Virus record (IMG/VR): IMGVR_UViG_3300044972_001210
Location: 1 to 31,742 of that record
Origin: a virus
Reading direction: 5' to 3' (one strand)
DNA: 31,742 bases
Positions 1 through 31,742 of the stretch are shown one piece after another. The translations under genes were made by a program, and so were the position numbers. Position 1 is the stretch's first letter. Each line of letters opens with the position of its first letter. The notes below the pieces were generated by a model that saw only the letters and a program-made list of their open reading frames with translations, did not search any database and was not told the DNA's origin.

Positions 1-283
1 TATTGTACAATTAGAGCACAGCAATACCCAAACTGGTATAAAGGCTTTGTACCCTAATCCAAATCAAAAAAATTTGAATTTACTAATTCAAGGACAATTA
101 CAAACTTATGAAACAATCTTAATTACTGATATTCAAGGAAAAACTATCCAAGAAATAGATTTGAGTCAATTTAACGGGGAATTAATAAAAATTAATACCG
201 AAGAATTACAAAAAGGATTTTATATCATCCAATTGGTTAAGAAAAGTGGATTAAGATTCTATTCCAAATTTATAAAAGACTAG
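1..283 (+). CDS. C-terminal end of a T9SS type A-sorted secreted protein (5' partial)
   Basis: The reading frame is open from base 2 and ends at TAG 281-283, so this is the last ~93 residues of a protein that begins outside the window. The segment starting YPNPNQ, followed by short beta strands (ILITDIQGKTIQEI), a hydrophobic-polar stretch and GFYIIQLV...KFIKD, matches the Por secretion system / T9SS type A C-terminal sorting domain (PNP motif, then 'L.D..G....', 'L..G.Y.....' and a short basic end). In Bacteroidota this domain targets proteins across the outer membrane and is normally cleaved off at the surface. It is the only gene seen on the plus strand and converges with the phage operon only 65 bp away. 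The cargo part lies outside the window, so its function is unknown. A methionine call at base 47 would be a TTG inside the domain and is not a real start. Confidence 0.85.
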   Translation, partial: IVQLEHSNTQTGIKALYPNPNQKNLNLLIQGQLQTYETILITDIQGKTIQEIDLSQFNGELIKINTEELQKGFYIIQLVKKSGLRFYSKFIKD

Positions 284-3240: not shown

Positions 3241-4845
3241 TTATAAAGTGATAGATCCTGCTTCTGCTCCACCTTCTTCTGCTCCACCTGCTTCTTTCTT
3301 GGCTTTTTCTGCCTCTTTAGCTGCTTTTTCTTTATAAGACTTATTTTTTTCGAATTCGTCTCTAGATAGAGGAAGAAATCTTCTAATCAAAAAATCCTTA
3401 TCGAAATAAGGTTTTTCTTCCTCACCTTCCTTATATTTCATATCACCAAGAGCAGTAACGAAAGCTGTAGCTTTGGTTAGATGAGATAGATTTAGAAGTT
3501 CTTCGAATTGATTTTCGCTACAGAAGGAAAGGCCTAAATTAGATTTAAACATTCTATCTTTAGAAAGTTCAGGAAAATCTAGACACATTTGAATGTATAG
3601 GGGTTTTACTATTATTTCCTGAAAAATTGACCTTAATCTGACCAAGAATTTTCCAAATCTAATTTCATCCCTTTCTAATTGATCTATTGCAATTTGATAA
3701 TTTGTTGGTGCTGCTCCTCTTCCTGCAAATCTAGCATAAGGAATTTTAGAATCTAATTTCAATTTATTGTAGAAATAAATCACATTTTCCATTACGTTAA
3801 AGTCTGGCCCATTTGCGTTTAGAACATCTATCTGTGGGGATTGACCATCTTTTTCGGGGAATAGATAGTTTTTATAGAATTGAACCTTAGGGGCTCCATT
3901 AACTAGTAATTCCCCCGAGGTATCATTAATAGTAACATCTTCCTTATAAGAAGACATAAGCTGGCCTAGCGTTTGCATTGCTTTCTGCTGGGACTGAGTT
4001 CCAACTGGAATTACAAACTTAAGTCTATATGAAGCATTCATAACATTCCAGATAACTCTGGTATTTTCCATTACTCTTAGGATGTTATAAGATCTAATCA
4101 ATCTCTCTACATAACTTACTCTAGAAATAGAATTACCTTTAGCATAAGAAATATAGATGATTTGTTCAGACTTTAATGTTCTCATTAATTGGGTATCTTT
4201 TGGATACTGAACCCAGATTTGTTCGAAAGATCCATCTGGAGCCTTTTGGGTTGAAGGCTGCAACGAAGTTGGGTCCAATTCTTTAAAACCTACTATCTTC
4301 TTTCCGTCTGTAGAATACACAATTTCAAAAGAAAGGAATCCATCGATTAGAAATTGTTTGAATAATTGCCAAGCCAGGTTGTTCTGCTGAAATCCATACA
4401 ACATATAAATTGTTTTAAAATTCTCCTGTACCTTATCGAGAATTTTATCTTTGATATCTATATTGTTTAAAGCTGGATAAGCAAAGAAGTTCTTATCGTC
4501 ATAATTAATTGCTTCGTCTGAAATAGTCTCCAAAATAAAATCAATCTCCCCATTTAGGGAAAACTTTCTAAGAAAGTCTCTTTTACCAAGATAATCCTTA
4601 TCGAAATAAGCAATATATTTTCTTATTCTCGTATCTTGATATCCAAGGGTCCAATAAAAAGCACTGTCTTCAGTAAAACCAGTTCCCTCCTCAGTAAACA
4701 TCTGGGACTCTGTTTGCCCAATTGTTTGTGAGTTCTTGATAACCATATCCTCATATTGCATCCCAAATTTTCCTATTCGACTCAAATTTTTGTACATTTG
4801 AGTTAGAAATTTATTCTGTGGGTTAGCGTCTAAAAAACCTGCCAT
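3241..4845 (-). CDS. gp20: Portal vertex protein, copy B (T4 gp20-like)
   Basis: 534 residues, near T4 gp20 (524). Portal proteins form the dodecameric ring at the head vertex through which DNA is packaged and the tail attaches. It is plainly homologous to the gene immediately upstream (4869-6485): both start MAGF..NPQ, share KNSQ.IGQTE, FDKDY.GKRD.LRKFSLN, QIIYISYAKGN, SRVSY.ERLIR and RVIW.VMNAS.R. The motifs ERDEIRFGKFLVRLRSIFQEIIVKPLYIQMC and the following helices belong to the clip/stem part of gp20-like portals. The C-terminus ends in a Lys/Glu/Ala/Gly tail. It follows the other portal by 23 nt with an A-rich leader, so the two are co-transcribed. Which copy supplies the functional portal cannot be told from sequence. 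Confidence 0.88.
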   Translation of the reverse strand: MAGFLDANPQNKFLTQMYKNLSRIGKFGMQYEDMVIKNSQTIGQTESQMFTEEGTGFTEDSAFYWTLGYQDTRIRKYIAYFDKDYLGKRDFLRKFSLNGEIDFILETISDEAINYDDKNFFAYPALNNIDIKDKILDKVQENFKTIYMLYGFQQNNLAWQLFKQFLIDGFLSFEIVYSTDGKKIVGFKELDPTSLQPSTQKAPDGSFEQIWVQYPKDTQLMRTLKSEQIIYISYAKGNSISRVSYVERLIRSYNILRVMENTRVIWNVMNASYRLKFVIPVGTQSQQKAMQTLGQLMSSYKEDVTINDTSGELLVNGAPKVQFYKNYLFPEKDGQSPQIDVLNANGPDFNVMENVIYFYNKLKLDSKIPYARFAGRGAAPTNYQIAIDQLERDEIRFGKFLVRLRSIFQEIIVKPLYIQMCLDFPELSKDRMFKSNLGLSFCSENQFEELLNLSHLTKATAFVTALGDMKYKEGEEEKPYFDKDFLIRRFLPLSRDEFEKNKSYKEKAAKEAEKAKKEAGGAEEGGAEAGSITL

Positions 4846-4868: not shown

Positions 4869-6485
4869 TTAAGCTGCTGGTGGTGCCGGTTCTGCTGCTG
4901 GTGCGGCTGGTGCTGCTGGTGCGGCTGGTGCTGCTCCTGCGGCTGGTGCTGCTCCTTCTTTCTTTAATTTTTCTGCTTTCTTCTTAGCTTCAGCATTTGC
5001 TTTTATATCATCTGCGCTCAGCCCCAAGTAATTTTCTATTAAATAAGGAACAGAGAAAAATCCCCCTCCTGTGTCATCGGTTAAAGCTATTAGACCATCA
5101 ACTGCTTCTTTTTTCTTGGTGATAATTTCCATCTCTTGATTTCTAGTAAATGGATTGTCCGAAACATAATCTAACCCTAACTGGCTCTTGAACATGTAAT
5201 CTTTTTCCAGCTCAGGAAAATCCTTACACATTTGAATCCAGAGAGGTTTTATCAGAATGTCCTGGAAAGAAGTTCTTAATCTATTAATAAATTTAGCAAA
5301 TCTTATTTCTTGTTTATCAAGTCCTTCTGCGGCATTTGCATATTTACCCATAGTTCCTCCATCAGGACCGGTAAATCTGGAATTAGGAACTTTTGACTCG
5401 TTGATTAATTTATCAAAGAAATAAGCAAGAGGAGCTGGATCATTTAAGTTTGGACCCACGTTGTTTAAAGGTTCAATTGTAGGACTTCCATTAACTCCAG
5501 AAGGCATTAGGTAATTTTTGAAGAACTGAATCTTAGGTGCTCCGTTAACAAAAAGCTCTCCACTCTGGTCATTTAATGTAATATCCTCTTTATAGATACT
5601 CATTAACTCACCTAATGTTTGCATCCCTTTTTGCTGGGATCTGGTTCCGATCGGAACTGTCATCTTCATTCTAAATGAAGCATTCATTACGGACCAGATA
5701 ACTCTAGTATATTCTATAATTCTAAGAATATTGTAAGGTCTTATTAATCTTTCGGTATAACTTACTCTAGACACTGTGTTACCTTTCGCGTAAGAGATGT
5801 AAATTATCTGGGAATCATATAGCATTCTTTTCTTTCTAGGGTCTTTAAAATACTGCCACCATACGTTTAAATAGGTGCCATCCATTTGTTTCTCCACAGA
5901 AGGCATTAGGGTCATAGCATCAATTTCTTTAAACCCTATGATATTCTTTCCTTTGTCATCATAGATGATTTCAAATGCAATAAAACCATCAACTAAAAAT
6001 TGTCTGAAATACTGCCAAGCTGTGATGTCATCAGTAAATCCAAACATGTCATACAACTTCTTATAATTGTCGTTTATTCTGTTAGTTATATTTTCTTTTA
6101 ATCCAGTCAGATTTAAAAATGCAGGATAAGCAAAGAAATTATGAGTGTCATAGGATATTGCTTCGTCATTTACAGTATCCAGAATAAATTCTATTTCTGG
6201 ATTAAGAGAAAATTTTCTTAGATAATCTCTTTTTCCTTTATAATCCTTATCAAAATAAGAAACATACTGTTTTGTGGAGGTATCCTGTCTTGCTAAAGCA
6301 TATAGCATGGTTTCATCCTCAATTAGACCTTTCTTTAGAAAGGCTGCTTCGGTCTGACCGATAGCTTGAGAATTTTTTACTACCATGTCTCCATAATTCA
6401 GTCCGAAATTACTAAGGCCCTTAACTGAATCTCGAATTCTCTGAAATATTGGACTTCCTTGTGGATTTTCTATAAAACCTGCCAT
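4869..6485 (-). CDS. gp20: Portal vertex protein, copy A (T4 gp20-like)
   Basis: 538 residues, full length for a T4-type portal and a tandem paralogue of the next gene. Conserved blocks include KNSQAIGQTEAAF, YFDKDYKGKRDYLRKFSLNPEI, QIIYISYAKGNTVSRVSY, the helix EIRFAKFINRLRTSFQDILIKPLWIQMC and DFPELEKDYMFKSQLGLDYVSDN. The last ~35 residues are an Ala/Pro-rich low-complexity tail encoded by an imperfect GCTGGTGCTGCT-type repeat, absent from the other copy, which instead has a charged tail. Both copies keep the same core lengths, so neither looks like a decaying pseudogene. It lies downstream of the gp4-like nuclease and a 202 aa unknown, a head-assembly neighbourhood. Expected role: vertex ring, nucleation of head assembly and packaging channel. 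Confidence 0.9.
   Translation of the reverse strand: MAGFIENPQGSPIFQRIRDSVKGLSNFGLNYGDMVVKNSQAIGQTEAAFLKKGLIEDETMLYALARQDTSTKQYVSYFDKDYKGKRDYLRKFSLNPEIEFILDTVNDEAISYDTHNFFAYPAFLNLTGLKENITNRINDNYKKLYDMFGFTDDITAWQYFRQFLVDGFIAFEIIYDDKGKNIIGFKEIDAMTLMPSVEKQMDGTYLNVWWQYFKDPRKKRMLYDSQIIYISYAKGNTVSRVSYTERLIRPYNILRIIEYTRVIWSVMNASFRMKMTVPIGTRSQQKGMQTLGELMSIYKEDITLNDQSGELFVNGAPKIQFFKNYLMPSGVNGSPTIEPLNNVGPNLNDPAPLAYFFDKLINESKVPNSRFTGPDGGTMGKYANAAEGLDKQEIRFAKFINRLRTSFQDILIKPLWIQMCKDFPELEKDYMFKSQLGLDYVSDNPFTRNQEMEIITKKKEAVDGLIALTDDTGGGFFSVPYLIENYLGLSADDIKANAEAKKKAEKLKKEGAAPAAGAAPAAPAAPAAPAAEPAPPAA
4873..4953 (-). repeat. Ala/Pro-coding low-complexity repeat at the portal C-terminus
   Basis: Imperfect repeats built from GCTGGTGCTGCTGGTGCG-like units (plus strand) encode the AAP-rich tail of portal copy A. 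The region is much more GC-rich than its surroundings and is likely prone to length change by slippage. Confidence 0.7.
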
Positions 6486-6514: not shown

Positions 6515-7123
6515 TTATTGATTTAATTTCGATCTATAGTTATTATATATCTCGTTAACAGGAATGCCCTGGACTTGAGTGTATTTTAGATAGGGTAGTT
6601 TGTGCCAATCTGAGTAATCTATCCCCTTAATGTCTCTCATGTATTTAAATTTAAATCCTGTGAAAGATCCAGTATAACCTGTTCCTTTAAAAAGAGAAGG
6701 TAAATCCTTTGAGGTTAATCTAATTTCATCGGGATTTCCCCCATCGGAGATTTTCTTTTTGTTATATTCAATAGAGCTTTGAAACTGATCCCAAAACTTC
6801 TGAAGAATTTCTAGTCTTTGCTCCGGAGGGGTTAAGGTTAAATCTATAGTCTTAACGATAATTTCTTCTCCTACTCTTTCAGAAGAGATATAAAGAACCA
6901 ACGGATTTCTGTTAATAAATCTTACTTTCTCGCTAAGCTCTGTGTTTGTTGGGTACGAAAAAAAATAAATATTTCCTGGGATTAAAATTCCTGAATATTT
7001 GAAATCCCCTCCCTTTTTATCGGTTCCATATTTATCTAGAAAATAAACATCCGTTTTGGAAGATAAAGCAGGAATAGAGGGTTCGGTTTTTCTATATTCT
7101 ATAATTTGTTCTTTAAAATCCAT
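6515..7123 (-). CDS. Conserved T4-like phage protein of unknown function, 202 aa
   Basis: 202 residues, no membrane segments. The middle has IPGNIYFFSYPTNTEL, then RNPLVLYIS, then TLTPPEQRLEILQKFWDQF. This order (hydrophobic 'G.iYFF.Y' strand, 'PLVLyi', then a helix starting 'P...R..iL') resembles a family I recall in T4-like phages near head-completion genes, but I cannot name it with confidence. It is not T4 gp53, whose sequence is different. Its ATG overlaps the stop codon of the gp4-like gene, and the portal follows 29 nt later, so a role in head completion, neck or packaging is inferred from position only. Confidence 0.7.
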   Translation of the reverse strand: MDFKEQIIEYRKTEPSIPALSSKTDVYFLDKYGTDKKGGDFKYSGILIPGNIYFFSYPTNTELSEKVRFINRNPLVLYISSERVGEEIIVKTIDLTLTPPEQRLEILQKFWDQFQSSIEYNKKKISDGGNPDEIRLTSKDLPSLFKGTGYTGSFTGFKFKYMRDIKGIDYSDWHKLPYLKYTQVQGIPVNEIYNNYRSKLNQ

Positions 7124-7605
7124 TATGAGCTCTTAAATAGGAAATTTTCGTCAACAACTCCAAAATTGTAATTTCTTTTGGCCGCCCATTCTCTAGCAGC
7201 TTTAAATTTAGACTGGTTGGTTATCCAGATCTGCATATTCCTATTATATGCTTTCACTTTTGGTAAAGTTTCCGGCTGGGTTAAAACTGGTTTTTTGTGT
7301 TGAGCTTCTGGTTTTATCTCTATGATCCATTCTGCTTCTTCCCCGTTTTCTTTTAAAACTTTAATATAAAAATCCACATTATAAATGTGATCTTTTTTAT
7401 CTAAAGGATTATAGTATGAAATTTGGAGTGGCTCGGATGACCACTTTAGAATGTTTTCGTTGGTGTCGCAATATTTACAAAATCTAAATTCCCAGGAAGA
7501 CCTGAAGATAATATTGTGAACGTCCCCGATATATTTCTCTGGATTTATTGGTTCATAAAGACCAGATTTATAAATCCCATTTGGTTTTACTTTTTTGATC
7601 GACAT
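7123..7605 (-). CDS. gp4: Head completion protein / TnsA-like nuclease (T4 gp4-like)
   Basis: 160 residues, close to T4 gp4 (150). The segment YIGDVHNIIFRSSWEFRFC, then NILKWSSEPLQISYYNPLDK, HIYNVDFYIK and WIIEIKPE follows the gp4 family (phage head completion protein, TnsA-like endonuclease fold) almost block by block. Expected catalytic residues are Glu39, Asp78 and the Glu96-Ile-Lys98 motif. In T4, gp4 is needed to finish filled heads before tail joining. The start lies 5 nt after the stop of the gp55-like sigma gene, and the stop overlaps the next ATG, so sigma, nuclease, unknown and portals are likely one transcript. Confidence 0.88.
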   Translation of the reverse strand: MSIKKVKPNGIYKSGLYEPINPEKYIGDVHNIIFRSSWEFRFCKYCDTNENILKWSSEPLQISYYNPLDKKDHIYNVDFYIKVLKENGEEAEWIIEIKPEAQHKKPVLTQPETLPKVKAYNRNMQIWITNQSKFKAAREWAAKRNYNFGVVDENFLFKSS

Positions 7606-7610
7606 AGAAC

Positions 7611-7967
7611 TTAAACGTTATATGAGTTTTCGTCTCCGGTAATATGCGAGAAAGGTATAGTTTTAGGTGATTTTGGTGGGTGAATTTTCTTCCATCCTTT
7701 AGCAAATCCGTTCTTTGCAATCTGAGTGTAATATGCAAACGGATTATTTGATTTCTCAGGATTGAATCTGTTCCAGTATTTGCAAAGATCCTCCATTGCA
7801 AAAGCCATACAGTCTTCTTTATCTTCTGGATCCTTATAAGACATTTTTTTAGATATCCCATGAATCATAAGGTAAAACATATCTATAGTTTCTGGGGTTA
7901 AAACTCCTTTTTCCTTAGATTCCATGATTGCTCTCATCAAATCTGAGTTTTTTACGTAATTTGCCAT
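7611..7967 (-). CDS. gp55: Late-transcription sigma factor (T4 gp55-like)
   Basis: 118 residues. It starts NYVKNSDLMRAIMESKEKG, continues with MIHGISKKMSYKDPEDKEDCMAFAMEDL and then FNPEKSNNPFAYYTQIAKNGF. This is the same order as T4 gp55 as I recall it (YVNNKELL.AI..WK, then a sigma region 2 helix, then FD..KYKNPHAYITQACFNAF). T4 gp55 is a minimal sigma factor that directs host RNA polymerase to TATAAATA late promoters together with gp33 and the gp45 clamp. The copy here is shorter than T4 gp55 (about 185 aa) and lacks its C-terminal tail, which in T4 ends with the clamp-binding motif. A recurring GATATATAA motif in this window is the natural candidate target. A terminator lies just upstream (7998-8037), so it has its own promoter or relies on readthrough. 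Confidence 0.82.
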   Translation of the reverse strand: MANYVKNSDLMRAIMESKEKGVLTPETIDMFYLMIHGISKKMSYKDPEDKEDCMAFAMEDLCKYWNRFNPEKSNNPFAYYTQIAKNGFAKGWKKIHPPKSPKTIPFSHITGDENSYNV

Positions 7968-9032: not shown

Positions 9033-9236
9033 TTATTCTTTTTCTTGTCCTTCTTCTTCCTGATCTATAGTCTCCGCTTTCTTTTCTTTACCGTCTGGAG
9101 CTACACTCATTTTTCCTTCTGAACTTTCCACGTCTGGTTTTGTTTTCTTGGATTCTTCCTCCTCATTTTCAGGAGCAAAAGACCAAACTCTACTCAGTGC
9201 CGATTTTAATTTTTTTTTAATTCGGGACTTGGTCTT
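9033..9236 (-). CDS. -1 frame C-terminal extension of the 953 aa protein (candidate frameshift product)
   Basis: On the minus strand the frame at -1 relative to the 953 aa gene is open from 9236 (after a TGA at 9237-9239) to TAA 9033-9035. It has no plausible start codon of its own apart from an internal ATG for ~25 residues. If ribosomes slip back one base on the A9 run at 9210-9218, the protein gains about 58 residues after ELKKK. The extension contains VWSFAPENEEEE and MSVAPDGKEKKAE, which repeat the parent's LxxAPxxGK pattern and acidic composition, so this is coding sequence of the same protein. Options are programmed -1 frameshifting or transcriptional slippage, a real frameshift mutation, or a homopolymer sequencing error. 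Confidence 0.7.
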   Translation of the reverse strand, partial: KTKSRIKKKLKSALSRVWSFAPENEEEESKKTKPDVESSEGKMSVAPDGKEKKAETIDQEEEGQEKE

Positions 9237-12067
9237 TCAAAACCTTCTGTTAAGTTGTATCCCATTTCAGCATTAACTTCAATGTCAATTTGGGATTGAG
9301 TATTTTTAGCTGGAATTTCTGCTAGATTTGCAGTATCTAAATTATCGATGTCTGCATTTTTAGAAGATTTAACATCTAAGTATTCTACTTCATATCCTGC
9401 GTCTCCTTCTTCTTTACCTGGAGAGGTTGCGAAGTTAGGATTTGTAGAATCTTTAGTAGGTACTTTAGCACCTTTCTCAGGGGCTACTACTAAATTAGAT
9501 GTTGCTAAGTTATCGCTATCCGGGTTAGAAGCACCTGGGATATTGATTTTAATTTTGTAATCCGCTTCATGCGATCCTCCTGGAGCTTCAGCTAATTCTT
9601 GATTTGTTTTAGAAAGATCTGATGCTTCGTCCATTTTAGATTTACCTGATCCTGGAGCAGATGCTAAATTAGGGCTAAGTTTAGAAATCTCTGGGCTTTT
9701 AGAAGCTTTTGGATCTGGATATTCAATAGCATAATCAGCGTCACCTTCGGCTTTACCTGGAGCAGATGCTAGATTCATAGCTTTTAAACCTGATTTCTCC
9801 CATTCTGTAGCCATGTTAGTTCCTTTAGGTTTTCCTTCAGGAGCTGAAACTAGGGAATCTTGAGATTCACCTAAGTTATATCCAATTCCGTCTTCGGCTT
9901 CGTATTTAATTTCTTTGTTTTTATCTTCTGGAGCTTCTTCTAAGTTTGCATCTTTAAGATTTTCAACGTCTTTTTTTCCGTCTTTATCTTGATCTTTTCC
10001 TGTTGGAGCAGAGGAAGTGCTAGCTTTTAAAACCTGAGCTGGAGTTTTTCCGTGAACTGGTTTACCTGTTGAAGGAGCTTTAGACATAGTAACAGATTCT
10101 TTAACCTCTTCGCCTTCACCTTCTTCTGCATTTTCTTCAGAAGATTGTTTGAAAGCTTCTTCAAGATCTAAAATATCTTCTACACCATATTCTCCAGTTT
10201 TACCATTATCTAAAAGAACAGTGTAAGAACCTGAGCTACTATCTGAAGAAATAATTTTTCCAGTATTTCCGCTCTCTTTTACTTTTACATAGTCACCTAC
10301 TGTAAATTTAGAATCTTCCATTAATTCTTCAGAAATTTCTGTAGAGTTGTTATCCATAGAATCTAATTCTGCATTGATAGTAGACCATTTAGATTTAAGA
10401 GTTTGTAATTCCTTTTCTAATAGAGAGTAAGCTTCAGAAAGTTGTTTTGAACCTTTGTATAAAGGATTGGTAGAAACTAAAGCTTCGATCTTTTTCATTT
10501 CACCTTCTACTATCGAAATGTTATCGATAACCTGTTTTCTATCGTTAAGCATGATAGATTTAATTCTTCTTTCTCCGTCTAAGAATTCAGTTAGACCTTC
10601 AGAGATATCATATTTTAAGAAATCTCTTACCATACCAACTGCTTGAGATCCGTTAACGTTAAATAGAGAATTTTCTCTCATTGCTTCATTAACTCTTTGT
10701 AGGAATATTTTACCATCCCATTTAATCAAGCTAACAGATGCACCTTCGTAAACTTTAGAAACGATTGATTTTGCAAAATCCAATTCTACAATTTTATCAA
10801 AGTTTTCGTATAATCTGATTAAATCATTGATAACTTTACTTTCGTTAGCACCAAGTCCTCTAGAGATTTTGAAAGAAACTAATTTAGCAAGTTGATTGTA
10901 ATCACTGAAGTTAACTAGATCATTATTTAAATAAACTTTAGTCGATTCATTTTCTAAAACGATAGAAATTTTGGTATCCCCAGCGTAGATAGAAATACCT
11001 TTATCGTCAGCTTTAACATTTTCCGAAACGAAGGATTCTAATAAACCCAGGAAGTTTTTATCCATTATGGAAATGTCTCTCTGAGTTAGTTTTCTAACAC
11101 CAGCTGAACTTCCTTCAAATAGAGTTTTTCCTATTGCAAAGATAGTTTTGTTACCTTCAACTAATACTGGAGAGTAGATTTTCTTTACTTCAGAATTTCC
11201 GTTGATGGTTGGGATATTCATTTTAGAACCATTAGATTCTAAAACAGTTAGGGTGTTAATTAAATTTTTAATGATTGGATTGAATGACCAAACTCTAAGG
11301 TCTTTAGAAAGGGCAGCTGTAGATTTTCCTTCAGATACTAACCATTTAGTGATAGTTTCTGTTGCAGGAGAATAGAAAGATGAATTTCCAGTGTTAGCAA
11401 TTTGATATAAAGCTTTAGAAGCTTCGATTTCAGGTCTTAAGTTATTGATTGATTCAGTTACGGAATTAACTGCATTTTTTACAGAAGAATCCCAAGAATA
11501 ATTAGAGAATTCATTAACGAAAGACTCAGCAACTATGTATTCAGGTAAATTTTTATTCTTAATTAAATTAACATAATTCTCGCAAAGAATTTTAAAGCTA
11601 CCGTGATCGAAGATACCTTTCTTAGAAAAATCTAAGATAGATTCCATAATACCTAAATTTTCCACTCTGTTAGACTTCACAAATGAAGCAGCAGAAGGAT
11701 CGAATTGAGCCATGCTTTCAAGTGCTTCGTTTAGAAGACCTTGTTTTTGAGTTGGTTTAGCAACTTCATCTTTAGCTCCATCAACGTAAGAACCTGCATT
11801 CTTGTTAGCTAATTTATTTCCTAAACCACCCCAAGATTCAGAGATAGCTTGTGCTCTTGATCTGGATAAATCCATTTCTTCTCTTCTCAGAGCTTCCATA
11901 GGAGAGATTTTATTCTCTATTTTAGATTCTATCGCTTCGGAGATTTTAGATTCTGTGATTGTGTCGTTCCCGTTTTTAAGCTCATTAATATAAGCTTCAC
12001 ACAGATCTTTTACTTCTCTCGATTGAGTAGATTCTTTTAAGGTTTGCAATTTGTTTATTAAATCCAT
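9206..12067 (-). CDS. 953 aa virion/scaffold-like protein with repeat-rich acidic C-terminus
   Basis: Not assigned to a named family. Three parts are visible. The N-terminal ~550 residues are mostly helical (begins MDLINKLQTLKESTQSREV; VLESNGSKMNIP). Around residues 580-635 there is a small KOW/Tudor-like beta domain (KFTVGDYVKVKESGNTGKI, then SYTVLLDNGKTGEYGVEDIL). The rest is a disordered acidic tail with about ten degenerate repeats, each around a LA(S/E)AP(G/E)K motif (NLASAPGK, NLEEAPED, ELAEAPGG, NLAEIPAK). A late-type promoter lies 23 nt upstream and A9 near the stop opens a -1 extension. Size, acidity and position near portal and head genes suggest a prohead core/scaffold or internal virion protein; that is inference, and T4 gp22 similarity was not recognised. 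Confidence 0.75.
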   Translation of the reverse strand: MDLINKLQTLKESTQSREVKDLCEAYINELKNGNDTITESKISEAIESKIENKISPMEALRREEMDLSRSRAQAISESWGGLGNKLANKNAGSYVDGAKDEVAKPTQKQGLLNEALESMAQFDPSAASFVKSNRVENLGIMESILDFSKKGIFDHGSFKILCENYVNLIKNKNLPEYIVAESFVNEFSNYSWDSSVKNAVNSVTESINNLRPEIEASKALYQIANTGNSSFYSPATETITKWLVSEGKSTAALSKDLRVWSFNPIIKNLINTLTVLESNGSKMNIPTINGNSEVKKIYSPVLVEGNKTIFAIGKTLFEGSSAGVRKLTQRDISIMDKNFLGLLESFVSENVKADDKGISIYAGDTKISIVLENESTKVYLNNDLVNFSDYNQLAKLVSFKISRGLGANESKVINDLIRLYENFDKIVELDFAKSIVSKVYEGASVSLIKWDGKIFLQRVNEAMRENSLFNVNGSQAVGMVRDFLKYDISEGLTEFLDGERRIKSIMLNDRKQVIDNISIVEGEMKKIEALVSTNPLYKGSKQLSEAYSLLEKELQTLKSKWSTINAELDSMDNNSTEISEELMEDSKFTVGDYVKVKESGNTGKIISSDSSSGSYTVLLDNGKTGEYGVEDILDLEEAFKQSSEENAEEGEGEEVKESVTMSKAPSTGKPVHGKTPAQVLKASTSSAPTGKDQDKDGKKDVENLKDANLEEAPEDKNKEIKYEAEDGIGYNLGESQDSLVSAPEGKPKGTNMATEWEKSGLKAMNLASAPGKAEGDADYAIEYPDPKASKSPEISKLSPNLASAPGSGKSKMDEASDLSKTNQELAEAPGGSHEADYKIKINIPGASNPDSDNLATSNLVVAPEKGAKVPTKDSTNPNFATSPGKEEGDAGYEVEYLDVKSSKNADIDNLDTANLAEIPAKNTQSQIDIEVNAEMGYNLTEGFERPSPELKKN
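9210..9218 (-). other. A9 slippery run at the end of the 953 aa gene
   Basis: Nine consecutive A on the coding strand (codons TTA AAA AAA AAT TAA in frame 0) lie 1 nt before the stop codon and inside the 28-nt overlap of frame 0 with the open -1 frame. Such runs allow tRNA or polymerase slippage. No clear downstream stimulating hairpin was seen. Confidence 0.65.
9240..10090 (-). repeat. Degenerate protein-level repeats with LxxAP core
   Basis: About ten units of 20-36 residues, each with an [LF]-x-x-[AS/I]-P-x-x-K core and variable acidic spacers. Two related longer spacers occur (APGKAEGDADYAIEYPD and SPGKEEGDAGYEVEYLD), about 120 residues apart. The DNA repeats are diverged, so this is conserved at the protein level. 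The two further copies in the -1 frame (9033-9209) continue the series. Confidence 0.7.
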
Positions 12068-30324: not shown

Positions 30325-31742
30325 TTATCTTAGTAGGGTTACCGTTCCTTCGTAATAATATACTTTACCATCATAAGCAGAAACCTTTACTCTCCAAACA
30401 TAAACGTCTTGTTGTGAGTCTTCTCTTTTGTAGGTACCGTCCCAACCTTCATTTTTATCTTTAGTTTTCCATAGAATTTCTCCCCATCTATTAAACAACA
30501 TAGCTTCGAATGTTTTTTCTCCGCTAACTGTAATGTAGAATTTATTATTTCTATCAGGTCCTGTTCTTTCAGGACTAAACGCTGTTGGAGCAAAAACAAT
30601 AACATCAGGACCTATAGTTAGTATATTTGAGGTTGAATCTAAACAAGTAACATCTTCATATGTAAAACTTGAAGTTAAGTTTACCCAATATCCTGAAGTG
30701 TCTGCTAGATAATTTTTAATTGGATTGATTTGAGTTGAAGTGTCTTCAGTATCAGGAAAGTCAAAAGACCATAAGTATTTAACACTATCTAATCCCCATC
30801 GAATCTGAGTTTGATTGATAAATTTAAATTTAGGAAATGCTACTGTTGTAAAATTAGGTTCATTAATAAACTGAGCATCAGGTACAGGTAGTATTTTTAT
30901 ATAATCTTCTTTTGTTAATACACTCTGACAAACACCTCCACCCCAATCATTTGTTACTATTAAAGTTACATCATACCAATTTCTATTAGCAGTATCATAT
31001 TTAATATTAATTGGATTAGCTATGGTTGATATACCGTTATTACCAAACTCCCATTCATATTTTATATTACTTAATGGTTTTCTAACTATTGAAGTAAAAT
31101 CAACTCTACCTGGTTCACACTGAATTAATGGATTACCAATAAAATTAAATTGTGGTAACGGTTCTATAATTAATTGAATATCATCTTTAGCTGAAGGACA
31201 AACACCTTCTTCAACACTTTCCAAAGTAATTAAAACTCTACCATTTCTAACATCTAATGATGTATCACCGATTCCATAATTATATAGTTGAATCAAATCA
31301 TTACCTTGTCTTACAAATGATCCATCACCATTAGTTTTCCAAATAATATCTTTAACCCATTTTTTATCACCATTTAATATAAATTGTTTATCTTCACATT
31401 GTTGGTATGGATTAGAATTTAGTATATCAATCTGTGGTTGAGTTTGTATTAATATAAGATCTGCTGTAGTATCTGTACATTTGGTTATTGGGTTTGTATA
31501 TTCAAATTTAACTCTATATTTTCCTTCATATTGTTTTGATTTAGGAGAAATACTTGGATCAAATTCATTTCCAACAACTCCTTCACCTGACCATTTACCT
31601 ACATTTCCTCCGGGTTGTATACTTGTTAATTCTAATGTAGATAAACTTGAACAAATAGTGTCAGGCAAATCTATTTTAACAATAGGTAAACCATTAACTA
31701 CTACCTCTATACTATCATCAACTAAACAACCACTTGAATTAT
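30325..31742 (-). CDS. T9SS type B / gliding motility-associated surface protein with Ig/PKD-like repeats (5' partial)
   Basis: The frame is open to the right edge; the Met-like start at 31668 is a TTG inside the protein and the reading continues upstream (SSGCLVDDSIEVVV). Several ~80-100 residue units, each with a 'C.(d/s)......i.i...P......' boundary, look like PKD/Ig-like repeats of Bacteroidota adhesins. The last ~90 residues, starting APTAFSPERTG, with EAMLFNRWGEILWKT, GWDGTYK and YVWRVKV...YYEGTVTLLR, match the gliding motility-associated C-terminal (T9SS type B) domain. The usual NxDGxND calcium-like motif is altered here (ERTGPDRNN). Such proteins are exported to the cell surface or medium. 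The promoter of the next phage gene lies 14 nt further on. Whether the gene is phage-borne cannot be proved from one window. Confidence 0.85.
   Translation of the reverse strand, partial: NSSGCLVDDSIEVVVNGLPIVKIDLPDTICSSLSTLELTSIQPGGNVGKWSGEGVVGNEFDPSISPKSKQYEGKYRVKFEYTNPITKCTDTTADLILIQTQPQIDILNSNPYQQCEDKQFILNGDKKWVKDIIWKTNGDGSFVRQGNDLIQLYNYGIGDTSLDVRNGRVLITLESVEEGVCPSAKDDIQLIIEPLPQFNFIGNPLIQCEPGRVDFTSIVRKPLSNIKYEWEFGNNGISTIANPINIKYDTANRNWYDVTLIVTNDWGGGVCQSVLTKEDYIKILPVPDAQFINEPNFTTVAFPKFKFINQTQIRWGLDSVKYLWSFDFPDTEDTSTQINPIKNYLADTSGYWVNLTSSFTYEDVTCLDSTSNILTIGPDVIVFAPTAFSPERTGPDRNNKFYITVSGEKTFEAMLFNRWGEILWKTKDKNEGWDGTYKREDSQQDVYVWRVKVSAYDGKVYYYEGTVTLLR

Follow-up and report, generated by a model that had tools for sequence, protein, structure and literature searches.

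Does a run of nine adenines at the very end of a phage head-region gene cause that gene to encode two proteins, and if so, by which kind of slippage and to what use? The window analysed here is the whole of a 31.7-kb virus record (IMGVR_UViG_3300044972_001210, positions 1 to 31,742; 31,742 nt), which has a block of T4-type head and tail genes on its minus strand, among them those for terminase, tail sheath, head closure and portal. The 953-aa gene that ends in the run, hereafter the parent, is placed in the head part of this block because the portal gene lies at 3241..4845 (-). Comparing the locus with its relatives, we consider it on balance somewhat probable that the run is a programmed slippage site acting mainly during transcription, that the parent is a head protein, and that a protease frees the short tail encoded by the shifted frame. 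The relevant features are:

9206..12067, minus strand: parent gene, 953 aa, a head-region protein with no PHROG or above-cut-off Pfam family
10166..10306, minus strand: SH3/Tudor-like domain, about residues 588-634, from a sub-threshold Pfam MSSS match (590-623), modelled beta strands and sub-threshold Foldseek Tudor matches
9245..10090, minus strand: C-terminal region of LxxAPxGK and GYN[LIV]xE units, about residues 660-941, from the alignment
9245..9253, minus strand: predicted prohead-protease site L939-T940-E941/G (the slash marks the putative cut), 12 residues before the zero-frame end
9210..9218, minus strand: A9 slippage run, A9 in 62/66 and A10 in 4/66 distinct contexts
9206..9208, minus strand: zero-frame stop TAA, immediately 3' of the AAY codon; TAA or TGA in relatives
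9033..9209, minus strand: -1 frame extension, 58 codons and a stop, from dN/dS and stop counts by frame
7611..7967, minus strand: Sigma-70 region 2 protein (Pfam Sigma70_r2), a syntenic neighbour of the parent family
7123..7605, minus strand: head-closure protein (PHROG 218, E 3.7e-43)
3241..4845, minus strand: portal protein (PHROG 213; phage matches)

The Sigma-70 region 2 protein presumably resembles a T4 gp55-like late sigma factor. The portal gene belongs to a tandem portal-like pair, at 3241-4845 and 4869-6485, similar in length and sequence; the PHROG 213 test covers the first copy.

The 3' end of the parent frame reads CCC GAA TTA AAA AAA AAT TAA, with exactly nine A at 9218-9210 that end, as the preliminary description of this DNA had stated, 1 nt before the stop (9208-9206). 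Relatives were collected from IMG/VR with the 953-aa protein as query (22 loci), then with an alignment (78 loci) and, in a second search independent of the parent, with the tail alone (122 loci); the site is thus found by two kinds of search, and the tail-only search yields 66 distinct frameshift contexts and three loci without a frameshift. Parent identity among the relatives falls to about 41%, and wherever a contig covers the gene end the same plan is seen, a zero-frame KKN and stop followed by a -1 tail of 52-64 codons. Over the 66 contexts the run is A9 in 62, A10 in four and A8 or shorter in none, and in the A10 contexts the extra A does not fuse the two frames. A regular-expression count with the run length left free (7-12) found A9 in 91/91 loci, 39 of them distinct (some being one contig fetched twice). 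These sequences are related and their counts are not independent trials, so the number of changes on a tree is the better measure: mapped onto a 34-parent tree, the run has zero changes at its nine positions, even though three of them are wobble sites of Leu/Ser/Val or Lys codons, whereas at conserved codons in the rest of the gene the wobble sites average about six changes. Similarly, the 12 conserved Lys columns elsewhere all mix AAA and AAG, with a minimum of three changes. A 348-kb contig contains ten A/T runs of nine, of which the parent's is the only sense-direction one found within a well-supported part of a gene. Selection acts at the nucleotide level to keep the A run as a shift-prone site.

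In the window, the -1 frame opens just 5' of the run, with no start upstream of the run; after the run it reads LKSALSRVWSFAPENEEEESKKTKPDVESSEGKMSVAPDGKEKKAETIDQEEEGQEKE (58 codons), the frame giving KKKLKSALSRVWSFAPENEEEESKKTKPDVESSEGKMSVAPDGKEKKAETIDQEEEGQEKE and ending with TAA at 9035-9033. In the first set of relatives this frame is open only 3-18 nt upstream of the run. The initial reading of a frame open to 9033, without its own start and about 58 residues long, therefore holds, and that such openness exceeds chance is borne out by mononucleotide-shuffled tails, which remain open about 1% of the time, and by the presence of the tail in every relative whose contig reaches it. Among 39 sequences, stops number zero in the -1 frame and interrupt both other frames in 39/39, while dN/dS is about 0.25-0.30 in the -1 frame and above 1.1 (about 1.25) in the other two. 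Substitution rates and stop counts alike show that selection acts on the tail as protein, and does so in the -1 frame alone. Together with the relatives themselves, they lend support to the proposed pair of forms, of about 953 and 1011 residues, as the likely outcome of a frameshift. In 10/39 tails, a whole clade, ATG, GTG and TTG are entirely absent, which excludes independent initiation there, rarer start codons apart; in that clade, frameshifting is plausibly the sole route of expression.

The preliminary description had also envisaged that the two frames might become one, through a changed A count or in relatives carrying the same residues in frame. Neither is seen: the 62 A9 contexts share one phase, the four A10 contexts are not fused, and the three contigs without a frameshift have a separate gene with its own ATG. 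Its remark that the tail ends 4 nt before the next ATG applies to the window (ATG 9028) but not to the relatives, where the gap is longer and variable and hence not part of the design. The tail motif is VWSFAP or NFYFAP, and the recurrence of VWSF in the protein body, to which attention had been drawn, is a coincidence; in the body these residues form part of a W-x-F-N-P motif that is invariant and lies in a folded region, with WQF or WSF at this position in other clades. The SFAP and SVAPDGK of the tail do continue the LxxAPxGK units of the parent in the window and in most relatives; the shortest parents hold few such units (two 'AP' dipeptides in L082).

Slippage by either ribosome or polymerase had been considered from the outset; the slippage site is kept in all 66 contexts, no conserved ribosomal stimulator accompanies it, and we judge polymerase the likelier agent, transcription being favoured over translation distinctly, if not overwhelmingly. 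Polymerase slippage is the better fit because nine to ten A are kept while ribosomal slippage at A_AAA_AAA needs seven, and because the site has no conserved hairpin or Shine-Dalgarno (SD)-like stimulator. Folding against shuffles revealed no conserved downstream RNA structure (median z -0.10 to -0.65), an Rfam search for an RNA stimulator gave no match, and an SD-like sequence occurs in some members only, one clade having an AGGAG-like stretch near the run. Nine A or T are enough for efficient slippage by bacterial RNA polymerase, a property that Thermus dnaX exploits (PMC5009743), and Antonov and co-workers class A runs longer than seven as transcriptional sites (PMC3711429); against this, E. 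coli RNA polymerase slips weakly on A compared with T runs (PMC6260861). A search of five long contigs for polymerase genes of the Rpb2 type found none, and the phages seem to rely on the host polymerase.

A programmed -1 ribosomal frameshift at A_AAA_AAA, or at the overlapping A_AAA_AAY, aided by the adjacent stop, would yield the same two proteins, and we regard it as a credible though less probable account. Both heptamers stand in phase in almost all members, with a stop codon next or nearly next to the slip heptamer, but seven A suffice for A_AAA_AAA whereas at least nine are retained. Such heptamers are known to shift, one IS cluster frameshifts without an established stimulator (PMC4066793) and known phage frameshifts are mostly ribosomal (PMC5009743). 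The lack of conservation of both hairpin and SD-like stimulator tells against the ribosome, although a stimulator is not strictly needed in all known cases. Moreover, the anti-SD sequence is reportedly sequestered in ribosomes of Bacteroidota, the probable hosts (according to a title cited in PMC9723584), which would disfavour SD-type stimulation.

That the tail is instead a separate small gene, or arises by internal initiation or re-initiation without any frameshift, is very unlikely, although three contigs do present it in detached form. In L256, L257 and L259, close relatives that represent one event, the parent ends early (...HGYNSTMNNEE) without the tail, which follows as a separate ORF of 74 aa with its own ATG (MSSNKILDFFSYINEENADVKKNLSRNFYFAP...; L257:1432-1656, also in L256 and L259). 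An internal ATG is likewise present in 29/39 tails, but initiation there would lose the conserved first half of the tail; the 10/39 tails without ATG, GTG or TTG refute such a reading for one major clade, barring rarer start codons, and a separate gene leaves the kept A run unexplained. The first 15 residues of the detached ORF end in INE (INE/E), a putative protease site of the kind predicted in the parent, 8 residues before the tail proper and much like the arrangement in the fused form. T4 internal proteins carry propeptides of 10-19 residues that target them to the core (PMC9026906), and by analogy the INE-ending leader suggests that the tail can function on its own once cleaved.

Phase variation, in which DNA slippage toggles the tail between genomes, is highly improbable: A9 is long enough for DNA polymerase to slip, but no contig fuses the frames via an altered run length and all contexts are off by one in a single phase, unlike a switch. 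Homopolymers are generally error-prone, but a sequencing or assembly error, or a decayed gene, has next to no probability given 66 distinct contexts with an identical out-of-frame phase, A8 nowhere and opposite selection between frames, comparisons by which sequencing error is excluded as the cause of the two frames.

The parent itself consists of a helical N-terminus, a beta-rich middle, long helices, a small SH3/Tudor-like domain and an acidic LxxAPxGK C-terminus. Searches of Pfam and PHROG with the parent and with the tail returned no family, and a search of genome contigs no relative. A structure model of residues 1-643, of moderate confidence (pLDDT 72, pTM 0.37), has no significant solved-structure match in a PDB fold search and matches uncharacterised phage proteins in BFVD, including a 442-aa protein of Tenacibaculum phage PTm1, whose gene is taken as the fold match by length and synteny and is missed by sequence profiles. 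LR756500 and other huge phages encode homologues of about 430-620 aa upstream of the portal gene, and a sigma-region-2-like ORF resembling that at 7611-7967 of the window comes after the homologue in both LR756500 and PTm1. These outgroup homologues have no LxxAPxGK repeats, A run or tail; the three are therefore additions in one phage group, and the tail is not essential to the basic role of the family. Comparison with T4 gp22 gave no PHROG, Pfam or solved-structure match, scaffold-like repeats being found instead in the downstream protease gene. Scanning the 348-kb relative for the AP-GK motif revealed no further protein with S-x-AP-x-GK; one ORF of 333 aa in it contains a simple repeat of PAPGK, but a relationship is not clear.

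A role in head maturation is suggested by the neighbouring genes and by the motifs of the parent. Contigs of 9/10 relatives carry genes for an S77 prohead protease and a gp23-type capsid protein, the latter with a conserved SLNE/SAG near its N-terminus. The proteases of T4 (gp21) and giant phages cleave after Glu within short motifs (PMC9026906, PMC5694885), and the motif [LI]xE[AGS] occurs 13-18 times per parent protein against about 3.5 in shuffles (18 against 3.6 for the window parent). In 66/66 distinct contexts, which are related sequences, [LIVM]xE is found 7-12 residues ahead of the zero-frame end, the window version being LTE/G at 12 residues; at a background of 0.029 per residue, chance would place the motif in a six-residue stretch in about 16% of unrelated sequences. 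We predict that this [LIVM]xE near the slip point is a prohead-protease site of the T4-gp21 type; against this, GYN[LIV]xE could be no more than a component of the repeat. LxxAP itself was considered as a protease site and dropped, most AP units being without the glutamate. In L134:2345-4309 and relatives, the S77 protease forms a fusion with a long, LxE-rich scaffold-like repeat (YLAENLDKGISYSEYLAEN...). On the same contig, a further A9 stands at L134:2331-2339 (302331-302339 in the contig of L082), immediately 5' of the likely start of the capsid gene.

Taken together, these observations lead us to propose that programmed frameshifting takes place at the A run and that the site is conserved for it. 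The majority product would be the 953-aa form with its KKN end, while the -1 tail would bring the minority product to about 1011 residues. The slip would occur mainly during transcription, the host RNA polymerase inserting one A in a manner comparable to Thermus dnaX. We hypothesize a place for the protein in the core or interior of the prohead, where the prohead protease would cut the conserved [LIVM]xE a few residues 5' of the slip point and release the tail peptide in the head; slippage would thereby set the dose of tail peptide relative to core protein. The fullest version of this proposal, in which polymerase slippage at A9 doses a prohead-carried, protease-freed peptide that one lineage has come to encode as a separate gene with a targeting leader, is advanced tentatively and falls somewhat short of probable.

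Set against known systems, the site resembles those of Thermus thermophilus dnaX and Shigella spa13/mxiE (PMC5009743) in having about nine A/T, an alternative C-terminus and no need for a ribosomal stimulator. Those, however, are cellular genes in which slippage has been experimentally shown, whereas here a phage head gene is concerned and slippage is deduced from its sequence; moreover, the longer product is the zero-frame one in dnaX but the -1 frame one here. A structural protein made in two lengths by a shift near the 3' end is also known from gene 10 of phages T7 and T3 and from the capsid and tail frameshifts of Listeria phages PSA and A118 (PMC5009743). In contrast to the present case, those shifts take place on the ribosome and lengthen capsid or tail proteins (with Ig-like domains in T3 and others), while here capsid and tail are separate genes and the shift combines an A9 run with a short acidic tail beside a protease motif. 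The lambda gpG/gpGT tail assembly chaperone (PMC5009743) shares a -1 shift near the gene end that is conserved across divergent phages, but is a different gene, and the one studied here lies in the head block. The S77-type protease and gp23-type capsid genes of the relatives recall T4, whose gp22, gp67, internal proteins and Alt have propeptides cut by gp21 (PMC9026906). Like T4 core and internal proteins, the parent is enriched in [LI]xE and the leader of the detached tail ends in IxE, but unlike them it matches no T4 protein in sequence or structure. We know of no frameshift in genes for T4 core or internal proteins. In the open-access literature we found no earlier account of a gene of this type, of slippage (transcriptional slippage included) in structural genes of phages, or of a frameshift behind a prohead-protease site.

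Most of the programmed frameshifts known in phages concern tail chaperones and capsid or tail proteins, and here one is conserved in the head block, where it would give two protein forms, which ordinary gene calling would miss, to a gene family without an assigned function. The natural exchange of a slippage-made tail for a stand-alone gene makes the role of the tail directly testable, and the mRNA at the run would reveal whether slippage of the polymerase serves phages for dosing.

The carriers of the slippage site are probably large phages of Bacteroidota, a host assignment based on domains of type IX secretion system (T9SS) type at both window ends and on Tenacibaculum and Prevotella phages among the terminase and portal matches, alongside phages of other hosts. 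The domains in question are C-terminal type IX secretion signal domains (Por_Secre_tail, CHU_C) at 2-283 (+) and 30325-31740 (-); unexpected in a phage contig, they may belong to phage proteins or be host-derived. Finally, ribosomal protein bS21 is encoded in 2/10 relatives' contigs (L139 and L140), and is also carried by published freshwater Bacteroidota phages (PMC9723584).
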